Shown here piece after piece: positions 1,269-11,061 of a stretch of DNA of 16,613 nucleotides; the stretch's first letter is position 1, and the number at the start of each line of letters is the position of its first letter. A program made the translations under genes and the position numbers. Source of the stretch: Candidatus Altarchaeum sp. (GTDB taxonomy: Archaea > Altiarchaeota > Altiarchaeia > Altiarchaeales > Altiarchaeaceae). The stretch lies in the NCBI GenBank assembly GCA_018260755.1, contig JAGTWP010000018.1, positions 5,749 through 22,361 on the forward strand, given 5' to 3'. The notes below the pieces were generated by a model that was given only the letters and a program-made list of their open reading frames with translations, was not told the origin of the DNA and made no database searches.

Positions 1269-1507
1269 TTTATGATTTTATTAAAAAAACACAATTAATT
1301 ATGAATTATAATATAAAAATAATATAAAAATAAACTATGAAAGCAAAATCCAAATTATGTGAAATTTTATGGAAATTTTATTGTAAATTTATTATATATG
1401 TTCTTAATTACTATTCCTAATTATCTAATCAAAGAATAATAAATCAAAGAATAATAAATCAAAGAATAATAAATCAAACAATACAAATAAAAAGAACAAA
1501 GTTGAAG
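1269..1507. promoter_or_regulatory. Divergent promoter region between mch and the Sm-like gene
   Basis: This 239-bp A+T-rich intergenic region separates two divergent genes. TATA-like words for the minus-strand gene lie at about 1303-1330, where ATAATATAAAAATAATATAA is read on the plus strand. A plus-strand candidate is TTATTATATATG ending at 1400. Box assignment is by eye only. A 15-bp tandem repeat (1426-1480) lies between the plus-strand TATA candidate and the Sm-like start codon. Confidence 0.4.
1426..1480. repeat. 15-bp tandem repeat, about 3.6 copies
   Basis: The unit AAATCAAAGAATAAT is present at 1426-1440 (first base T instead of A), 1441-1455 and 1456-1470, with a partial copy at 1471-1480. 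It ends 27 bp before the Sm-like start codon, so it would lie in the leader if transcription starts at the TATA candidate near 1400. Confidence 0.93.
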
Positions 1508-1747
1508 ATGGAAGAAACAAAATATATGAAACCTTTGGACGCATTGGGAGATGTATTAAATAAAGAAGTAATTGTGAAGACAAAAAACGGGCTTGAAATT
1601 TCAGGAACATTGAGGGCATTTGATATGCATGTGAATATTGTATTGGGAAATGTCCGTTTTAAAGATAAAGATCCGGAAGGAAACATAGTTGAAAAACGAC
1701 TGGAACAAATCTTTATAAGAGGAGATATGATTGTTATGGTAATGTAA
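1508..1747 (+). CDS. Archaeal Sm-like (LSm/SmAP) protein
   Basis: Small RNA-binding protein of the Sm fold. Archaeal members form heptameric rings that bind U-rich RNA and take part in RNA processing and turnover. The 79 residues show the family pattern: 'RPLDALG'-like start (KPLDALGDVLNKEV), Sm1 motif with 'LEISGTLRAFDMHVNIVL', and Sm2 motif 'IFIRGDMIVMV' at the C-terminus. I take the ATG at 1508. An in-frame TTG two codons earlier (1502) would add only two residues and is a poorer start. It is followed after 32 nt by rpl37e, a gene order common in archaea, so the two are probably co-transcribed. A 15-bp tandem repeat lies just upstream. Confidence 0.93.
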   Translation: MEETKYMKPLDALGDVLNKEVIVKTKNGLEISGTLRAFDMHVNIVLGNVRFKDKDPEGNIVEKRLEQIFIRGDMIVMVM

Positions 1748-1779: not shown

Positions 1780-1953
1780 ATGAGTAAAGGAACACCAAGC
1801 TTCGGAAAGCATAATAAAGGGCATGTCCATATTTTATGTCCGCGATGCGGGAAATTTTCATTTCATCATGTAAAAAAGGTGTGTGCATCATGTGGTTACG
1901 GAAGAAGTGCAAGGATGCGACCTAGTAAGCAAAAGGATGTAGTAAGCAGGTAA
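1780..1953 (+). CDS. rpl37e: 50S ribosomal protein L37e (eL37)
   Basis: This 57-residue zinc-ribbon protein is part of the large ribosomal subunit. It begins [18 protein letters not shown], the usual eL37 opening, and has two CxxC pairs (C20/C23 and C35/C38) that would bind one zinc ion. '[13 protein letters not shown]' is a family signature. The C-terminus is Lys/Arg-rich, as expected for rRNA contact. The start ATG is preceded by an A-run (TTTAAAAATG) with no Shine-Dalgarno sequence. It lies between the Sm-like gene and the UPF0200 gene with gaps of 32 and 44 nt. Confidence 0.95.
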
Positions 1954-2742: not shown

Positions 2743-3480
2743 ATGTTTACCGCAAAAATATCAAAGGTAAAGGACTTAAAAAGGGTTATAGAATCAGTAT
2801 CAGTTCTTGTTGATGAAGGTACGTTAAACATATCTTCAAAAGGTATTGATATAAAAGTAATAGATCCGTCTCAGATAGCAATGGGGATCTTAAATATTCC
2901 AAAGACAATGTTTGAAGAATATACCCTTGAAGGAGATAAAGACTTGGTTGTCGGAATGAATTTTCTTGAACTTTCAAAGCTGATGAAAAGAACCCGTTCG
3001 GATGATACTGTTGAATTAAAGATTGACAAGAAAATAGGAATTAAATTTAAAGGAAAAACAACCAGGGACTATGAATTGGGTATTCTTGAAACATCTACAC
3101 CGTCAAGAGAGCCGAAGATAGAAACGATTGACGAGATTAAAATTGCTGGAAATTTATTCGCGGACCATGTAAAAGATATAGAAATGGTAAGTTCAAAAAT
3201 AGCAGTTGAATTTAATAGCAAAGGTGTTGTGCTTTCCGCAGAAGGAGATGTATCAGAAGTAACGATAGAAATTTCAGATGAAAATTTAATAGATAAGAAT
3301 GTTAAGGAAGACGCAAAAGCAACATTTTCAATTGAATATTTAAAAAATTTAATCACAGCAGTAGATGCGGATACAATTATTACACTACGACTAAAGACAA
3401 ATTCTCCGATGGTGTTAGAATATAGCATCGGTGATGCAAGTATAAAATATTATCTGGCACCCCGTATTGAAGGGGTTTGA
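2743..3480 (+). CDS. pcn: DNA polymerase sliding clamp (PCNA)
   Basis: This is the archaeal processivity clamp, a ring of three subunits around DNA that tethers PolB/PolD, FEN1, ligase and other PIP-box partners. The 245 residues match the usual length of 245-250. Visible hallmarks are 'LVDEGTLNISSKGIDIKVID' near residue 22-41 (N-terminal subdomain), 'NFLELSKLMKR' near 73-83, 'DDTVELKID' near 87-95, and 'YYLAPRIEGV' as the C-terminal tail, which matches the conserved LAPRIE end. The start ATG follows TTTAAA with no Shine-Dalgarno sequence. The upstream 208-bp gap contains a 48-bp tandem repeat. A 68-nt gap separates it from the PRC-barrel gene. Confidence 0.95.
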   Translation: MFTAKISKVKDLKRVIESVSVLVDEGTLNISSKGIDIKVIDPSQIAMGILNIPKTMFEEYTLEGDKDLVVGMNFLELSKLMKRTRSDDTVELKIDKKIGIKFKGKTTRDYELGILETSTPSREPKIETIDEIKIAGNLFADHVKDIEMVSSKIAVEFNSKGVVLSAEGDVSEVTIEISDENLIDKNVKEDAKATFSIEYLKNLITAVDADTIITLRLKTNSPMVLEYSIGDASIKYYLAPRIEGV

Positions 3481-3801: not shown

Positions 3802-4053
3802 ATGAAATACAGTGTCGGAGCAACAATAGAGGAAGCAGGGAACAGCGTATTAAACAAAACATCTTCGTGGAGGGTGTTGAAACCTGTTGTTGAGAACTGT
3901 AAAAAATGCGGATTGTGTGCTACATTTTGCCCTGAAGGAATTATTCAGATTAAGGACATAGCGGTTATTGACTATGATTATTGCAAGGGATGCGGGATTT
4001 GTGCAGAAGAGTGTCCTATAAAAGGTATTAAAATGGTCTTGGAAAACAAATAA
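3802..4053 (+). CDS. porD: 2x[4Fe-4S] ferredoxin, pyruvate:ferredoxin oxidoreductase delta-subunit type
   Basis: This 83-residue iron-sulfur protein has two clusters of ligands: C33-x2-C36-x2-C39-x3-C43P and C61-x2-C64-x2-C67-x3-C71P. The N-terminal extension 'SVGATIEEAGNSVLNKTSSWR' matches PorD/VorD rather than a plain ferredoxin, since delta subunits open with a G-(A/T)-x-x-x-x-x-G-S...NKTG.WR pattern. It would pass electrons between the thiamine-diphosphate centre of a 2-oxoacid oxidoreductase and soluble ferredoxin. The porA, porB and porC partners are absent from the window, so the exact complex (pyruvate, 2-oxoisovalerate or 2-oxoglutarate) is uncertain. It is preceded by a PRC-barrel gene 16 nt away. 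Confidence 0.85.
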   Translation: MKYSVGATIEEAGNSVLNKTSSWRVLKPVVENCKKCGLCATFCPEGIIQIKDIAVIDYDYCKGCGICAEECPIKGIKMVLENK

Positions 4054-4139
4054 AAGTAGATAACACAGATAACACAAAAAGTAAATAGAACAACAAAATT
4101 ATTTTAATTTATTATTTTAAATTTTAATCTTACTATAAA

Positions 4140-4232
4140 ATGCCATGTGGGAAGAAAAGAAAAAAGCAAAAGATGCGAAAACATAAACAAGAGAGGCGAC
4201 AAAAATTATTAAGAAGCCAGCATAGCAGATAA
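4140..4232 (+). CDS. 30-residue very basic protein, bS22/mS38 (COX24)-like candidate ribosomal protein
   Basis: This short ORF encodes 30 residues, roughly half of them Lys or Arg, beginning MPCGKKRKKQK and continuing with 'MRKHKQERRQKLLR'. The pattern KxRK-(M/L)-(R/K)KHK-xx-(R/K)R-x-KLL-(R/K) is that of the bS22/AURKAIP1-COX24 group of mini ribosomal proteins, and MPCGKKRK also recalls short basic ribosomal proteins of Bacteroidota. Archaeal eL41 has a similar size and charge but a different pattern with a Trp, so it is a second option. The ATG follows CTATAAA. The stop codon lies in the loop of a 7-bp hairpin. This is a match by eye, with no alignment. The neighbours are porD and a membrane protein. 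Confidence 0.6.
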   Translation: MPCGKKRKKQKMRKHKQERRQKLLRSQHSR

Positions 4233-4257: not shown

Positions 4258-4647
4258 ATGAACACAAAAAGAGGACTGATTGGAACTGTTGCAGGATTTG
4301 TCTCGTATGTTCTTTTTACATATTTATTTATTTTTTTTACATCTTCTAATATTGGAAATTTTTTATTTCTATTACCGATTTTACCCCTTTTTTCATTTTT
4401 GGCAGGCATAGGAATTGGTTATTTTATAAAGGAATTTAAGGAATGTTTAATATTCGGAGGAATTGGAAGCATTGTTGGAATTGCTGTTGTTTTTGCATTA
4501 AATTTTGAACATTTAAATAATGATTTGCTTGGTGTGATGGGTTTAAATGCAATGGGATTATTTTTCGGATTCGGATTCGGTGCAATATTGTATTATAGAT
4601 CCGAGAGAAAAATAAAAATAATTGAGAAAATAAGCAGGAAAGGGTAA
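4258..4647 (+). CDS. Small four-helix integral membrane protein, function unknown
   Basis: This 129-residue hydrophobic protein has four predicted membrane segments at about residues 7-28, 33-57, 63-81 and 88-113, with glycine-rich helices ('GIGIG', 'GGIGSIVGI', 'FGFGFGA'). The C-terminal tail is strongly basic (RSERKIKIIEKISRKG) and is probably cytoplasmic. I take the ATG at 4258. An in-frame TTG at 4249 would add three residues. No family is recognised and no catalytic motif is visible. It is 16 nt upstream of the DUF166 gene and probably co-transcribed with it. Confidence 0.75.
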   Translation: MNTKRGLIGTVAGFVSYVLFTYLFIFFTSSNIGNFLFLLPILPLFSFLAGIGIGYFIKEFKECLIFGGIGSIVGIAVVFALNFEHLNNDLLGVMGLNAMGLFFGFGFGAILYYRSERKIKIIEKISRKG

Positions 4648-4663
4648 AATAAATACCCCAAGT

Positions 4664-5263
4664 ATGATGCTTAAAATTGCAATTGTCGGAAATTCGCTAT
4701 GCGCAGGAGAATTTATAAAAAAAACAGATAATGATGAAAGTGTCCGATTTATCGGACAGTGGATTCCTGAAAATTTGCCTGAAATAATTGATGATTTTTT
4801 AGAAATTAAAATTCCGGATTTTGTTTTTTCAGCGGATGTTGTGCTTGATTATACAAACCATCCGGATGTGCCATATCTGTTAAAAGATGCAAAAAAGATC
4901 TTAACAACATCAAGATGTAATTTGAAGAATGCCCTTCATACCGATTGTTTTTGTGCTGTTAACATAACTGAAAAATTCGGAATACCAGAATTCATGGTAA
5001 AGATAAATGAAGGCAAAATAAAAGATATAGTTGTTTTGAAATCATCTCCCTGCGGAGCGGCGTTTATTGTTGCGGAAAAAATTAAAGATAAAACACTGGA
5101 AGAGGCATTAAATACAGTTGGCTTACTAACACAATATGAGTGTAAAGGAAAAGGCGGACCAATTAGTTCTATTCACAAAGCAGCCGAAATTCATAAAAAT
5201 GCTTTAGAGAAAGCAATAATGAACGCACAAAAATCTAAATCTCAGATTGACACAAAATTATAG
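4664..5263 (+). CDS. DUF166 family protein
   Basis: This 199-residue protein matches the archaeal DUF166 family, whose biochemical function is not established (older records call some members thymidylate synthase-like, without good support). Family signatures are 'DYTNHPDVPYLL' (residues 62-73), 'VVLKSSPCGAAFIVAEK' (123-139) and 'QYEC' (157-160), where the last Cys sits in the expected C-terminal position. It contains six Cys (13, 85, 95, 97, 130, 160), so a metal or iron-sulfur site is plausible but not shown. Two adjacent ATGs (4664 and 4667) could each serve as start. It converges on hisF, with 204 bp between them. Confidence 0.82.
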   Translation: MMLKIAIVGNSLCAGEFIKKTDNDESVRFIGQWIPENLPEIIDDFLEIKIPDFVFSADVVLDYTNHPDVPYLLKDAKKILTTSRCNLKNALHTDCFCAVNITEKFGIPEFMVKINEGKIKDIVVLKSSPCGAAFIVAEKIKDKTLEEALNTVGLLTQYECKGKGGPISSIHKAAEIHKNALEKAIMNAQKSKSQIDTKL

Positions 5264-5467: not shown

Positions 5468-6244
5468 TTAAATTCTTACATTAATTTTATGCTCTTTTAA
5501 AAATTTCTTAACAACAGGAATAGGATATTCATCAAAATGAAATATTGAGGCTGCTAATGCCGCACTTGCCTTTGTTTTTTTGAAGACCTCATAAATATGC
5601 TCGGGATTTCCAACCCCGCCGGATGCAATTACAGGAATATCTAAAATTTCCGAAATTTTTTTGGTTAAATTTAACTCGTAGCCATCTTTCATTCCGTCTT
5701 TGTCCATTGAAGTAAGCAAAATTTCACCTGCTCCTAATTGTTCGCATCGTTCCGCCCATTCAACTGCGTCAATTCCTGTTTCCTGTCTTCCTCCGTAAAT
5801 ATAAATTTCGTAACCGCTTTTTGTCCTGCCTGTTTTCTTGGCATCAATTGCGACAACGATGCACTGACTTCCGAAAATTTTTGCCGATTGTTTTATAAAT
5901 TCGGGATTTTTTATTGCAGAAGTATTTATTGCAACCTTGTCTGCTCCTACATTTAAAATTTTATTAATATCCTCAATACTTTTAATCCCCCCTCCGACAG
6001 TTAAAGGCACGAATACCTTTTCCGCTGTTTTTTCAATCACATCAATCATTGTTCTTCGTTTTTCATAAGATGCGGTTATGTCCAAAAACACAATTTCATC
6101 CGCACCTTCTTTGTAATATTTTTCCGCTAAAATTTCAGGAATTCCCGCATAAATTATATTTTTAAATTTTTTTCCTTTAACTACCCTTCCTTTCGGAATA
6201 CTTAAATCACAGTCAAGGCAGGGAATTATACGTTTTGTTAGCAT
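5468..6244 (-). CDS. hisF: Imidazole glycerol phosphate synthase subunit HisF (cyclase)
   Basis: HisF is the TIM-barrel synthase half of the HisH-HisF complex. It joins PRFAR and ammonia to give imidazole glycerol phosphate and AICAR in histidine biosynthesis. The 258-residue length is normal for the family. Visible hallmarks are 'RIIPCLDCD' at the N-terminus with catalytic Asp11, 'LTVGGGIKS' near 81-89 (phosphate loop), 'VVAIDAKK' with Asp134 as the second catalytic acid, '[21 protein letters not shown]' near 171-191, and '[13 protein letters not shown]' near 215-227. Neither hisH nor other his genes are nearby, as is common in archaea with dispersed his genes. The start codon follows TTTAAA, and the gene is divergent from the TrxR-like gene across a minisatellite. 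Confidence 0.95.
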
Positions 6245-6507
6245 TTTAAATTTTAAATTTATTTCATCTTAAAATTTATTTCAATTTATAATTTATTTCA
6301 AATTATTTCATCTTAAAATTTATTTCAATTTATAATTTATTTCAAATTTATTTATTTCATCTTAAAATTTTATTTCAATTTATAATTTATTTCAAATTTA
6401 TTTCAAATTTATTTCAAATTATGTTTAATTTAAAATGTTAAATTTAAAATTATTAATATTAAATCTTAATAAATAATAGATATAATTATAATAATAAATT
6501 TTTTAAA
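6245..6507. other. Divergent intergenic region with a 44-bp minisatellite
   Basis: These 263 bp separate two divergent start codons (hisF and the TrxR-like gene), so promoters for both genes should lie here. It is almost entirely A+T. The hisF-proximal half is repeat, and the gene-proximal plus-strand end (about 6470-6500) contains AT-only TATA-like words (TATAATTATAATAATAAA). No ORF is seen. Confidence 0.6.
6261..6420. repeat. 44-bp tandem repeat (three copies) merging into an 11-bp repeat
   Basis: Positions 6261-6304 and 6305-6348 are identical 44-bp copies starting ATTTCATCTTAAAATTTATT. After 5 bp, a third copy at 6354-6398 differs by one extra T. The tail then breaks into three units of TTCAAATTTAT (6391-6401, 6402-6412, 6413-6420 partial). 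The tract lies between the divergent start codons of hisF and the TrxR-like gene. Confidence 0.9.
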
Positions 6508-7443
6508 ATGGATTACGACCTTATTGTTGTAGGGGGAGGACCTGCAGGACTTTCTGCTGCATTGACCGCAGTGTGCTATAAATTAAAAACACTTGTAATT
6601 GATGCTGCTTCTGCTGGCGGAGCACCGATGAATAATTTTCCGTGGAAAATCGTTGATAATACTCTCGGATTCAGGAATATGACCGGAAAGCAGATCGCGA
6701 GTATATTTGTTGGGCACATAAAAGAAGAAGGTGTTGAAATAAAAGAGAATGAGAGTATTGAAAATATAACAAGAGATGATGCAGCTGATGAAATTTTAGT
6801 TGAAACAAATAAAGGCAAATACACTGCAAAGGCAGTAGTAATAGCAATAGGTGTACTTGGAAAGCCGCGAAAAGCAAATGTGCGTGGAGAAAATTTAAAC
6901 GGCGTCAATTACACACTGACAGACCCAAATTTATATGCTAACAAGAATATTTTGGTTGCTGGCGGAGGAGATACGGCGGTTGAATGGGCAGTCGGACTTG
7001 CTCAAGCAGGAGCGGAAACAACAATAATGCACAGAAAAGGTGTATTCAGGGCAAACGAGAAAAACCAGAACGACATATCGCAGAGTAAAGTTAAAATTTT
7101 GTGGAATACAGAAACAAAGGAAATTTTAGGAGAAAACAACAGGGTTAAAAAAGTAATGTTCACAAATAACCAGACAAACGAAACAAAGACCGAGGACTTT
7201 GATGAAATTTTTCTCGCATTAGGTAATGTTCCGCACAGTGATTTTCTTGAAAAAATAAAAGTTAAAACAGATGAACGGAAGATGAAAATTATTGTTGATG
7301 AAACAATGAGAACAAGTATAAAAGGCATCTTCGCAGCAGGAGATATTACACAAAAGTGGCTTAGGATTCCTGAGGCAATAGGTGAAGGAGGATATGCCGG
7401 GATTTGTGCTTATAAATATATAAAGAATCCTTATTGGGCATAA
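6508..7443 (+). CDS. Thioredoxin-reductase-like FAD/NAD(P) flavoprotein lacking the CxxC redox pair
   Basis: This 311-residue protein has the two-domain fold of the low-Mr thioredoxin reductase family. It has a FAD dinucleotide motif GGGPAG (9-14), a NAD(P) motif GGGDTAVEWA (152-161), the 'HRKGVFR' 2'-phosphate reading motif (175-181) that favours NADPH, and 'GIFAAGDI' (273-280) for the flavin. At the place where thioredoxin reductases carry CATCDG, just before the NAD(P) motif, it reads 'YTLTDPN' (135-141). Both redox Cys are absent, and Cys23 and Cys300 are the only cysteines. It therefore cannot reduce thioredoxin in the usual way. The GGGDTAVEWA motif and Cys-less site recall the TrxR-like ferredoxin/flavodoxin:NADP+ reductases (YumC type), a likely but unproven role. 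The start ATG follows TTTAAA. Confidence 0.85.
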   Translation: MDYDLIVVGGGPAGLSAALTAVCYKLKTLVIDAASAGGAPMNNFPWKIVDNTLGFRNMTGKQIASIFVGHIKEEGVEIKENESIENITRDDAADEILVETNKGKYTAKAVVIAIGVLGKPRKANVRGENLNGVNYTLTDPNLYANKNILVAGGGDTAVEWAVGLAQAGAETTIMHRKGVFRANEKNQNDISQSKVKILWNTETKEILGENNRVKKVMFTNNQTNETKTEDFDEIFLALGNVPHSDFLEKIKVKTDERKMKIIVDETMRTSIKGIFAAGDITQKWLRIPEAIGEGGYAGICAYKYIKNPYWA

Positions 7444-9842: not shown

Positions 9843-10949
9843 CTATTTATTTTGTCCGATTATCATATCTCTTGTTAGGAATCCAATCACAATTCTGTTT
9901 TCCTCCACGATGCATAAATCCGCTGATAAAATTTTTCCAAAGGATTTCGTTATCAAATCATCTGCTTCAATAAATGCAACATTTTTATTCATTACTTCAT
10001 AAACAGGTGTGTCATAAGAAATTTTACGGGTTGATATCTGGTTCATAAGTTCATTTATTCTAATTACTCCCTCAATTTTTCCGTTCATTGTAACAACAAA
10101 AGATGACGGAAGAGTGTAAGAATAAGCAAAGGAGTTTAAATTTAAATTTAAAAGATCTCCTACGGTTAAATTTCCGTTTATCTCCTGTAACCGGACCGCC
10201 AATTCTCTGTTTTTCATTCCTTTAAATTTTTCTCTTGTTTCCGTCCATCTGCCTTCACCCTCTCCGGCAACAAGCAGGAACATCCCTATAAACACCAACA
10301 TTATACCATTAAAAGCATATCCTTTGAGCGTCAGAAATAATCCAACTAATATCATCACTACAAATAAAATTTTTGCTATTAATAATGAAATTTTTGTCGC
10401 TTTGAGATAATCCATGAACAACGCAAGGAATGCCCTTAAAACCCTTCCGCCGTCCATCGGAAATGCAGGAAGCAGATTAAACATAGCAAGCATAAAATTT
10501 ATCCACATTATCCAGCCCAAAAATCCGAAAAGGTCTAATGAAAATTCGGGTGCAAAAATATTAAGATAGTGAGACCAGTTGGGGGTTAAAAACATGAGTA
10601 AGATAAGACAAACCCATGCAAACAAAATGTTAAATAAAGGTCCAGCAAAAGCCATCAGAAGTTCTGCTTTGGGATTTTCCTCAATCTCAACATCCGCTGC
10701 TCCGCCGATAGGATAAAGTGTTATACTCCTTACTTTAAATCCGAACTCAATGGCAACAACAGAATGCGAAAGTTCATGAAGCAAAACAATTGAAAACAAA
10801 ATAAAAATTAACAATAAAGATGCGATTCCCGCTATGAAACCATAAGAGATGACAAACAACATAAATAAAAACAATATGAACATCAAAAAAGATATGTGTA
10901 ATTTTACAGAAATTCCGAAAATTTCAAAAATTTTTATTGATGATTTCAT
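9843..10949 (-). CDS. Site-2-type M50 metalloprotease with C-terminal CBS domains
   Basis: This 368-residue polytopic membrane protein is a site-2 protease family zinc metallopeptidase. With the start at 10949 (MKSSIKIF), the zinc motif 'HELSH' lies at about residues 58-62 in the second membrane segment and the third ligand is in 'NLLPAFPMDGGR' at about 158-169 (Asp166). Six or so membrane segments are followed by a soluble C-terminal part with a CBS pair ('NLTVGDLL', 'YEVMNKNVAFIEADD', 'IGFLTRDMI'), the usual layout of archaeal and bacterial M50B proteins, which sense an adenosyl ligand or regulate intramembrane cleavage. Its target is unknown. The open frame extends 20 codons upstream into the 3' part of the tRNA-Ile, so the upstream Met is not used. 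The gap between tRNA and start codon is 37 nt. Confidence 0.88.
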   Translation of the reverse strand: MKSSIKIFEIFGISVKLHISFLMFILFLFMLFVISYGFIAGIASLLLIFILFSIVLLHELSHSVVAIEFGFKVRSITLYPIGGAADVEIEENPKAELLMAFAGPLFNILFAWVCLILLMFLTPNWSHYLNIFAPEFSLDLFGFLGWIMWINFMLAMFNLLPAFPMDGGRVLRAFLALFMDYLKATKISLLIAKILFVVMILVGLFLTLKGYAFNGIMLVFIGMFLLVAGEGEGRWTETREKFKGMKNRELAVRLQEINGNLTVGDLLNLNLNSFAYSYTLPSSFVVTMNGKIEGVIRINELMNQISTRKISYDTPVYEVMNKNVAFIEADDLITKSFGKILSADLCIVEENRIVIGFLTRDMIIGQNK

Positions 10950-10986
10950 TTGATGCTCATTAAGATATGTAAAAATTAAAATATAA

Positions 10987-11061
10987 CGGGCCTGTGGTGA
11001 TTTGAACACCAGGCCTCACGATTATCAGTCGTGCGCTCTAACCAAGCTGAGCTACAAGCCC
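10987..11061 (-). tRNA. tRNA-Ile (anticodon GAU)
   Basis: The 75-nt gene on the minus strand folds fully: acceptor GGGCTTG with CAGGCCC (one T-G pair), D-stem GCTC/GAGC, anticodon stem CACGA/TCGTG with loop CTGATAA (anticodon GAT), 5-nt variable region and T-stem TGGTG/CACCA around TTCAAAT. U8, A9, A14 and G15 are in place. The CCA tail is not encoded (GTT follows). Position 73 is G, whereas most tRNA-Ile carry A73. It lies between the AT-hook protein gene (21 nt upstream) and the M50 gene (37 nt downstream), so co-transcription is possible. Confidence 0.96.

Follow-up and report, generated by a model that had tools for sequence, protein, structure and literature searches.

The window (the whole analysed stretch of 16,613 bp from Candidatus Altarchaeum sp.) contains a short ORF that is complete from ATG to TAA and encodes the peptide MPCGKKRKKQKMRKHKQERRQKLLRSQHSR. 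The initial annotation had described a complete ORF at this place with half of its residues being Lys or Arg; the position is exact, and the count of 14 such residues out of 30 is about right. The main features around the ORF are listed in Table 1. Genes for a DUF166 protein and for methenyl-H4MPT cyclohydrolase (MCH) are also found near it in the window. A small membrane-like protein is encoded directly downstream (4258–4647). It shows no Pfam or NCBIfam family above the cut-off, and its position is kept in four of four genomes of the genus.

Table 1. Features of the window around the bS22-like ORF.
Feature	Coordinates	Strand	Evidence or remark
Archaeal LSm (Sm-like) protein, upstream of eL37	1502..1747	+	Pfam PF01423, E 3e-18
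Ribosomal protein eL37	1780..1953	+	Pfam PF01907, E 6.4e-19; archaeal, translation-related contig
PCNA sliding clamp	2743..3480	+	Pfam PF00705 and PF02747; equivalent place in 4/4 genomes of the genus
PorD-type ferredoxin subunit, immediately upstream of the bS22-like ORF	3802..4053	+	NCBIfam TIGR02179 above cut-off
Candidate AT-rich promoter box (TTTATTATTTTAAA)	4108..4121	+	Position only in the window; relatives carry TTTATA there (16/24 vs 0.9 expected)
Gene of a bS22/COX24-family mini ribosomal protein, 30 aa and TAA stop	4140..4232	+	Homologues, dN/dS, profile tests

Homologues of about the same length (28–30 residues) were identified in 24 of the 29 genomes of the phylum to which the ORF belongs (Altiarchaeales-like), including all five genomes with completeness of at least 90%. 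Seven positions, M1, P2, G4, K6, H15, K16 and R20, are invariant in the alignment of 24 archaeal sequences. The gene is under clear purifying selection: within the genus dN/dS equals 0.04–0.19, pairs outside the genus give similar values, and all 15 substitutions between two of the loci (L005 and L006) are synonymous. Hence the search for conserved homologues in related genomes and the selection analysis, both suggested in the initial annotation, gave positive results, and further homologues were found in other phyla. AT-rich intergenic DNA may produce a Lys-rich frame by chance, and the ORF is indeed short and Lys-rich, as A-rich DNA would give, but this explanation is refuted by the conservation, the dN/dS values and the profile tests described below, and its probability is negligible. 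The ORF is a real gene that was overlooked in annotation, far beyond what chance would produce.

The hexamer TTTATA occurs 24–36 nt upstream of the ATG in 16 of 24 loci of the family, whereas 0.9 are expected from dinucleotide shuffles. This layout fits an archaeal TATA box and a leaderless or near-leaderless transcript. The archaeal-looking start context noted in the initial annotation is thus supported by family-wide enrichment, although the window copy has at the corresponding place an AT-rich box that lacks the exact hexamer. Several copies from other archaea have GGTG-type Shine-Dalgarno-like sequences instead of TTTATA, and some of these copies appear to use a GTG start.

For the assignment to a family, a profile of 24 archaeal peptides was searched against all PDB chains. 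It retrieved bS22 of Borreliella burgdorferi (8fmw chain V, E 3.9e-7), a bacterial AURKAIP1/COX24 protein (9i5v, E 2.5e-6) and bS22 of Flavobacterium johnsoniae (7jil, E 8e-6); mitochondrial mS38 (8a22) was matched weakly (E 0.68), and eL41 was absent from the matches. Since these peptides consist of little more than Lys and Arg, 5,000 shuffles per sequence were used as a composition control. Bacterial bS22s scored 48–57 bits on the archaeal profile (z 10–14), and none of 5,000 shuffles scored as high. An artefact of Lys/Arg content is excluded, because composition-matched shuffles never reach the scores of bacterial bS22s. In the reverse test, a profile of nine bacterial sequences and no archaeal ones was run against 515 stop-to-stop frames of the window, and the ORF was the sole significant match (E 2.6e-7, the next frame having 0.43). 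The window peptide is among the more diverged members of the family. Searched alone, it matches bS22 weakly (E about 0.3), and therefore the family membership rests on profiles.

Pfam COX24_C (PF08213), a model of 33 positions named for the mitochondrial protein, was the most often matched family, with 14 of the 24 members hitting it below the curated cut-off (best E 0.02); the window peptide alone gave no match to it, and the NCBIfam search of the peptides yielded no useful model. The archaeal family shows the characteristic features, namely 28–33 aa, the start MP-x-G-[KR]-K-[RK]-K, the core K-x3-HK and a composition of mostly Lys and Arg. The resemblance to the bS22/mS38 (COX24) group proposed in the initial annotation is supported by the PDB matches, the shuffle control and the bacteria-only profile alike. 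Judging from its sequence, the product of the ORF is a member of the bS22/COX24 family and not eL41.

Among proteins of known structure, the B. burgdorferi bS22 (28 residues in the PDB chain; PMC10618245) shares with the archaeal peptides the MPCG[RK]KRK start, the K-x3-HK core, the length, a Lys/Arg content of about half or more, and the helical conformation, as predicted for the archaeal form. Like the archaeal gene, it was unannotated, until cryo-EM revealed it; among the ribosomal proteins of Borreliella, it alone escaped identification by mass spectrometry (PMC10618245). The F. johnsoniae bS22 and the AURKAIP1/COX24 protein from 9i5v follow the pattern MP-x-GKKRK...HKRKKR...RHKKK, have chains of 30 aa and align end-to-end with the archaeal profile. 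These three proteins are bacterial, unlike the archaeal forms, and there are differences at single positions: the third residue is S or N in the latter two vs C, and position 17 is R in all bacterial forms compared, including B. burgdorferi (HKR), vs L in most archaeal forms (HKL). The closest bacterial forms among the matches listed are COX24-like ORFs of Omnitrophota and Elusimicrobia (L147–L154, L156, L157) with MPCGRKRKLRKIRTHKRKKLRKALRHLKKR; they differ from the archaeal ones in having HKR and being 3–4 residues longer at the C-terminus. The mitochondrial mS38 (AURKAIP1/COX24) aligns by its KIKKHKLRKRRKANR core and occupies the ribosomal pocket presumed for the archaeal family (PMC7005279), whereas its N-terminus is different and it belongs to the mitoribosome.

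The archaeal eL41 (eS32), represented by the 37-aa protein of Pyrococcus (6sw9, 6skf), is also tiny and basic, has a helical fold as predicted for the archaeal bS22, and its presumed site is the same h27/h44/h45 pocket (PMC7005279). Given this presumed common site, together with comparable length and basicity, the window peptide might be a divergent eL41 that converged on bS22 or was mistaken for it. By eye, KMRKHKQERRQKLLR looks like the eL41 core, and the peptide scores slightly high on the eL41 profile (z 1.7). This score is close to the level of shuffles (292 of 5,000 are equally good), and in the other direction archaeal eL41s score no better on the bS22 profile of archaea than shuffled versions of themselves (z from −0.5 to 0.7). 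The W-K-K ... R-W core is invariant in 21 archaeal eL41s and absent from the archaeal bS22-like peptides, which lack the WKKKGRMRWKW segment and the N-terminal extension of 12–14 residues typical of archaeal eL41 (PMC7005279) and show no homology to it beyond composition. Moreover, the peptides start with MPCG[KR]KRK exactly as bacterial bS22 does. No clear match to eL41, the outcome that the initial annotation had named as speaking against bS22, was obtained in either the PDB profile search or the shuffle test. The eL41 identity was rejected by these three observations (no PDB profile match, no eL41 core, shuffle-level scores), and we consider it very improbable.

The search with the archaeal profile identified a bS22-like gene in 39 of 394 archaeal genomes. 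It is present in 18 of 34 genomes of a second archaeal phylum and in 55 of 156 genomes of a third one (that of G238); a single further carrier (G231) lies outside the three phylum sets. According to these profile matches, the bS22 family extends beyond Altiarchaeales to three or more further archaeal phyla, which may belong to DPANN, judging from their small genomes. The carriers are mostly multi-contig draft genomes, and close relatives of the peptides occur in Omnitrophota MAGs, so that bacterial contamination of metagenome bins has to be considered. Several observations make it exceedingly unlikely. The window copy is surrounded by archaeal genes (MCH, LSm, eL37, PCNA), archaeal TATA boxes are found upstream, some copies reside on long contigs (1.39 Mb in G012 and 511 kb in G010), and the gene occurs in 24 genomes of one phylum. 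The copies outside Altiarchaeales are not bacterial contaminants either, because their contigs carry archaeal translation or RNA genes, those of aIF1A, aIF2 gamma, RNA polymerase subunit RpoL, TFS, Dph2 and Cbf5. In the non-altiarchaeal genome G210 (L134) the gene (5001–5087) adjoins the co-oriented gene of aIF1A (4541–4888), and at the G134 locus (L141) it lies (5001–5087) about 1 kb from the gene of aIF2 gamma (6131–7396). These two loci may possibly form a translation-initiation neighbourhood.

The distribution of eL41 was analysed with a profile of archaeal eL41 (A2), built because Pfam PF05162 proved too weak for the archaeal protein, with no control or archaeal genome above its cut-off. 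Matches with E ≤ 1e-6 were considered clear. Clear eL41 was found in 141 of the 394 archaeal genomes, and not one of the 394 has both this protein and a bS22-like gene, although about 14 such genomes would be expected if the two were independent. The archaeal groups bearing bS22 lack eL41, i.e. the two proteins are mutually exclusive. As the genomes are related and the absence of eL41 is phylum-wide, this exclusion has the weight of about four independent lineages, not of 39. Calculated at the level of families, the probability of exclusion by chance is about 0.0005 if no family is counted as shared, and 0.006 if the family of G028 is so counted, values that still overstate independence. About half of the archaeal genomes have neither a bS22-like gene nor eL41 at the thresholds used. 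In the phylum of G238, eL41 was found in none of 156 genomes, including those without bS22; hence its loss there need not stem from bS22 and could have preceded it.

The sole eL41 match inside the phylum of the ORF is on contig C397 of G028. The 16S rRNA of this contig is archaeal but shares no more than about 75% identity with any genome searched, its nearest relatives being genomes outside the class, and the second 16S rRNA of the same genome (contig C174) is 88% identical to that of G009. C397 is most likely a misbinned contig. Its eL41 gene is directly upstream of a 16S-tRNA-23S operon (L144, 39–137 and 378–5311), and the 23S rRNA contains a group I intron.

In solved ribosome structures, archaeal eL41, bacterial bS22 and mitochondrial mS38 occupy one cavity of the 16S rRNA lined by h27, h44 and h45 (PMC7005279, PMC10085706, PMC10618245). 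There eL41 makes contact with the base modifications that surround the P site; bS22 extends to the large-subunit rRNA, forming an intersubunit contact (PMC7005279, PMC10085706, PMC10618245, PMC6582356). It has been proposed that bS22 and mS38 aid leaderless or SD-less initiation (PMC6582356). AlphaFold2 modelling of a relative of the window peptide (L007, the first row of the alignment) as an isolated peptide predicted one confident helix at residues 5–29, with mean pLDDT of 90; in the ribosome, the helix of bS22 is bent. Since bS22, mS38 and eL41 have one pocket in solved structures, the filling of the eL41 site by bS22 is the best explanation of the data, and the ORF very probably encodes an archaeal bS22 that takes the h27/h44/h45 place of eL41. 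The altiarchaeal peptide would be a basic alpha-helix inserted between these helices below the decoding centre, where eukaryotes and other archaea have eL41 (eS32). In this position it would support the P site and the junction of h44 with h45 and provide a further contact between the subunits; eL41 would be replaced in this way in Altiarchaeales and in no fewer than three additional archaeal phyla. That the protein is built into archaeal ribosomes, occupies this pocket and has this function we infer from the solved bacterial, mitochondrial and archaeal ribosomes.

The peptide could also belong to the bS22 family by descent and now act off the ribosome, e.g. by binding nucleic acids or as an antimicrobial. 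In its free form bS22 is an inhibitor of bacterial growth, and both bS22 and eL41 inhibit in vitro translation (PMC10085706). Such a role is improbable given the phylum-wide conservation, the invariant N-terminal and HK residues common with ribosome-bound bacterial bS22, the single match per genome (partial repeats in G016 aside), the absence of a signal peptide in the sequence, and the mutual exclusion with eL41.

The bS22 family, its fold and its probable site are already known. We found no report of archaeal bS22, or of complementarity between bS22 and eL41, in the literature searched (open-licence PMC texts). If the ribosomal role is correct, some archaeal ribosomes would regularly contain, beside the P site and in place of eL41, a protein hitherto described in bacteria and mitochondria, and the swap would provide a natural experiment on the requirements of the pocket. 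It would help to account for the "missing" eL41 of some archaeal genomes, noted as puzzling in PMC7005279, and would support the proposals to rename these proteins as occupants of a single universal site (PMC10085706, PMC10618245). Further, a gene of 30 aa, too short for most annotation, is added to several archaeal phyla. More tentatively, and with the odds rather against it, bS22, mS38 and eL41 might mark one universal site at which several archaeal lineages (Altiarchaeales and representatives of three or more further phyla) have had the bacterial-type protein since their early history. On this view, which of bS22 and eL41 is present would be a ribosomal character dating back to deep archaeal branching, or else the result of an ancient exchange of a ribosomal protein close to the decoding centre between domains, rather than of any recent transfer.

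Two minor observations concern gene starts. In G016 (contig C123; L010, 1113–1524) the intact bS22-like gene is directly preceded by 2.7 tandem copies of its promoter and first codons, with a unit of 155 bases and copies 100% identical; this reflects either amplification of the promoter or an artefact of assembly. In the window, the mechanical GTG start of an M50 peptidase ORF (9843–11009) overlaps a tRNA-Ile (GAT) gene on the minus strand (10987–11061), and the true start of the peptidase is probably further in.
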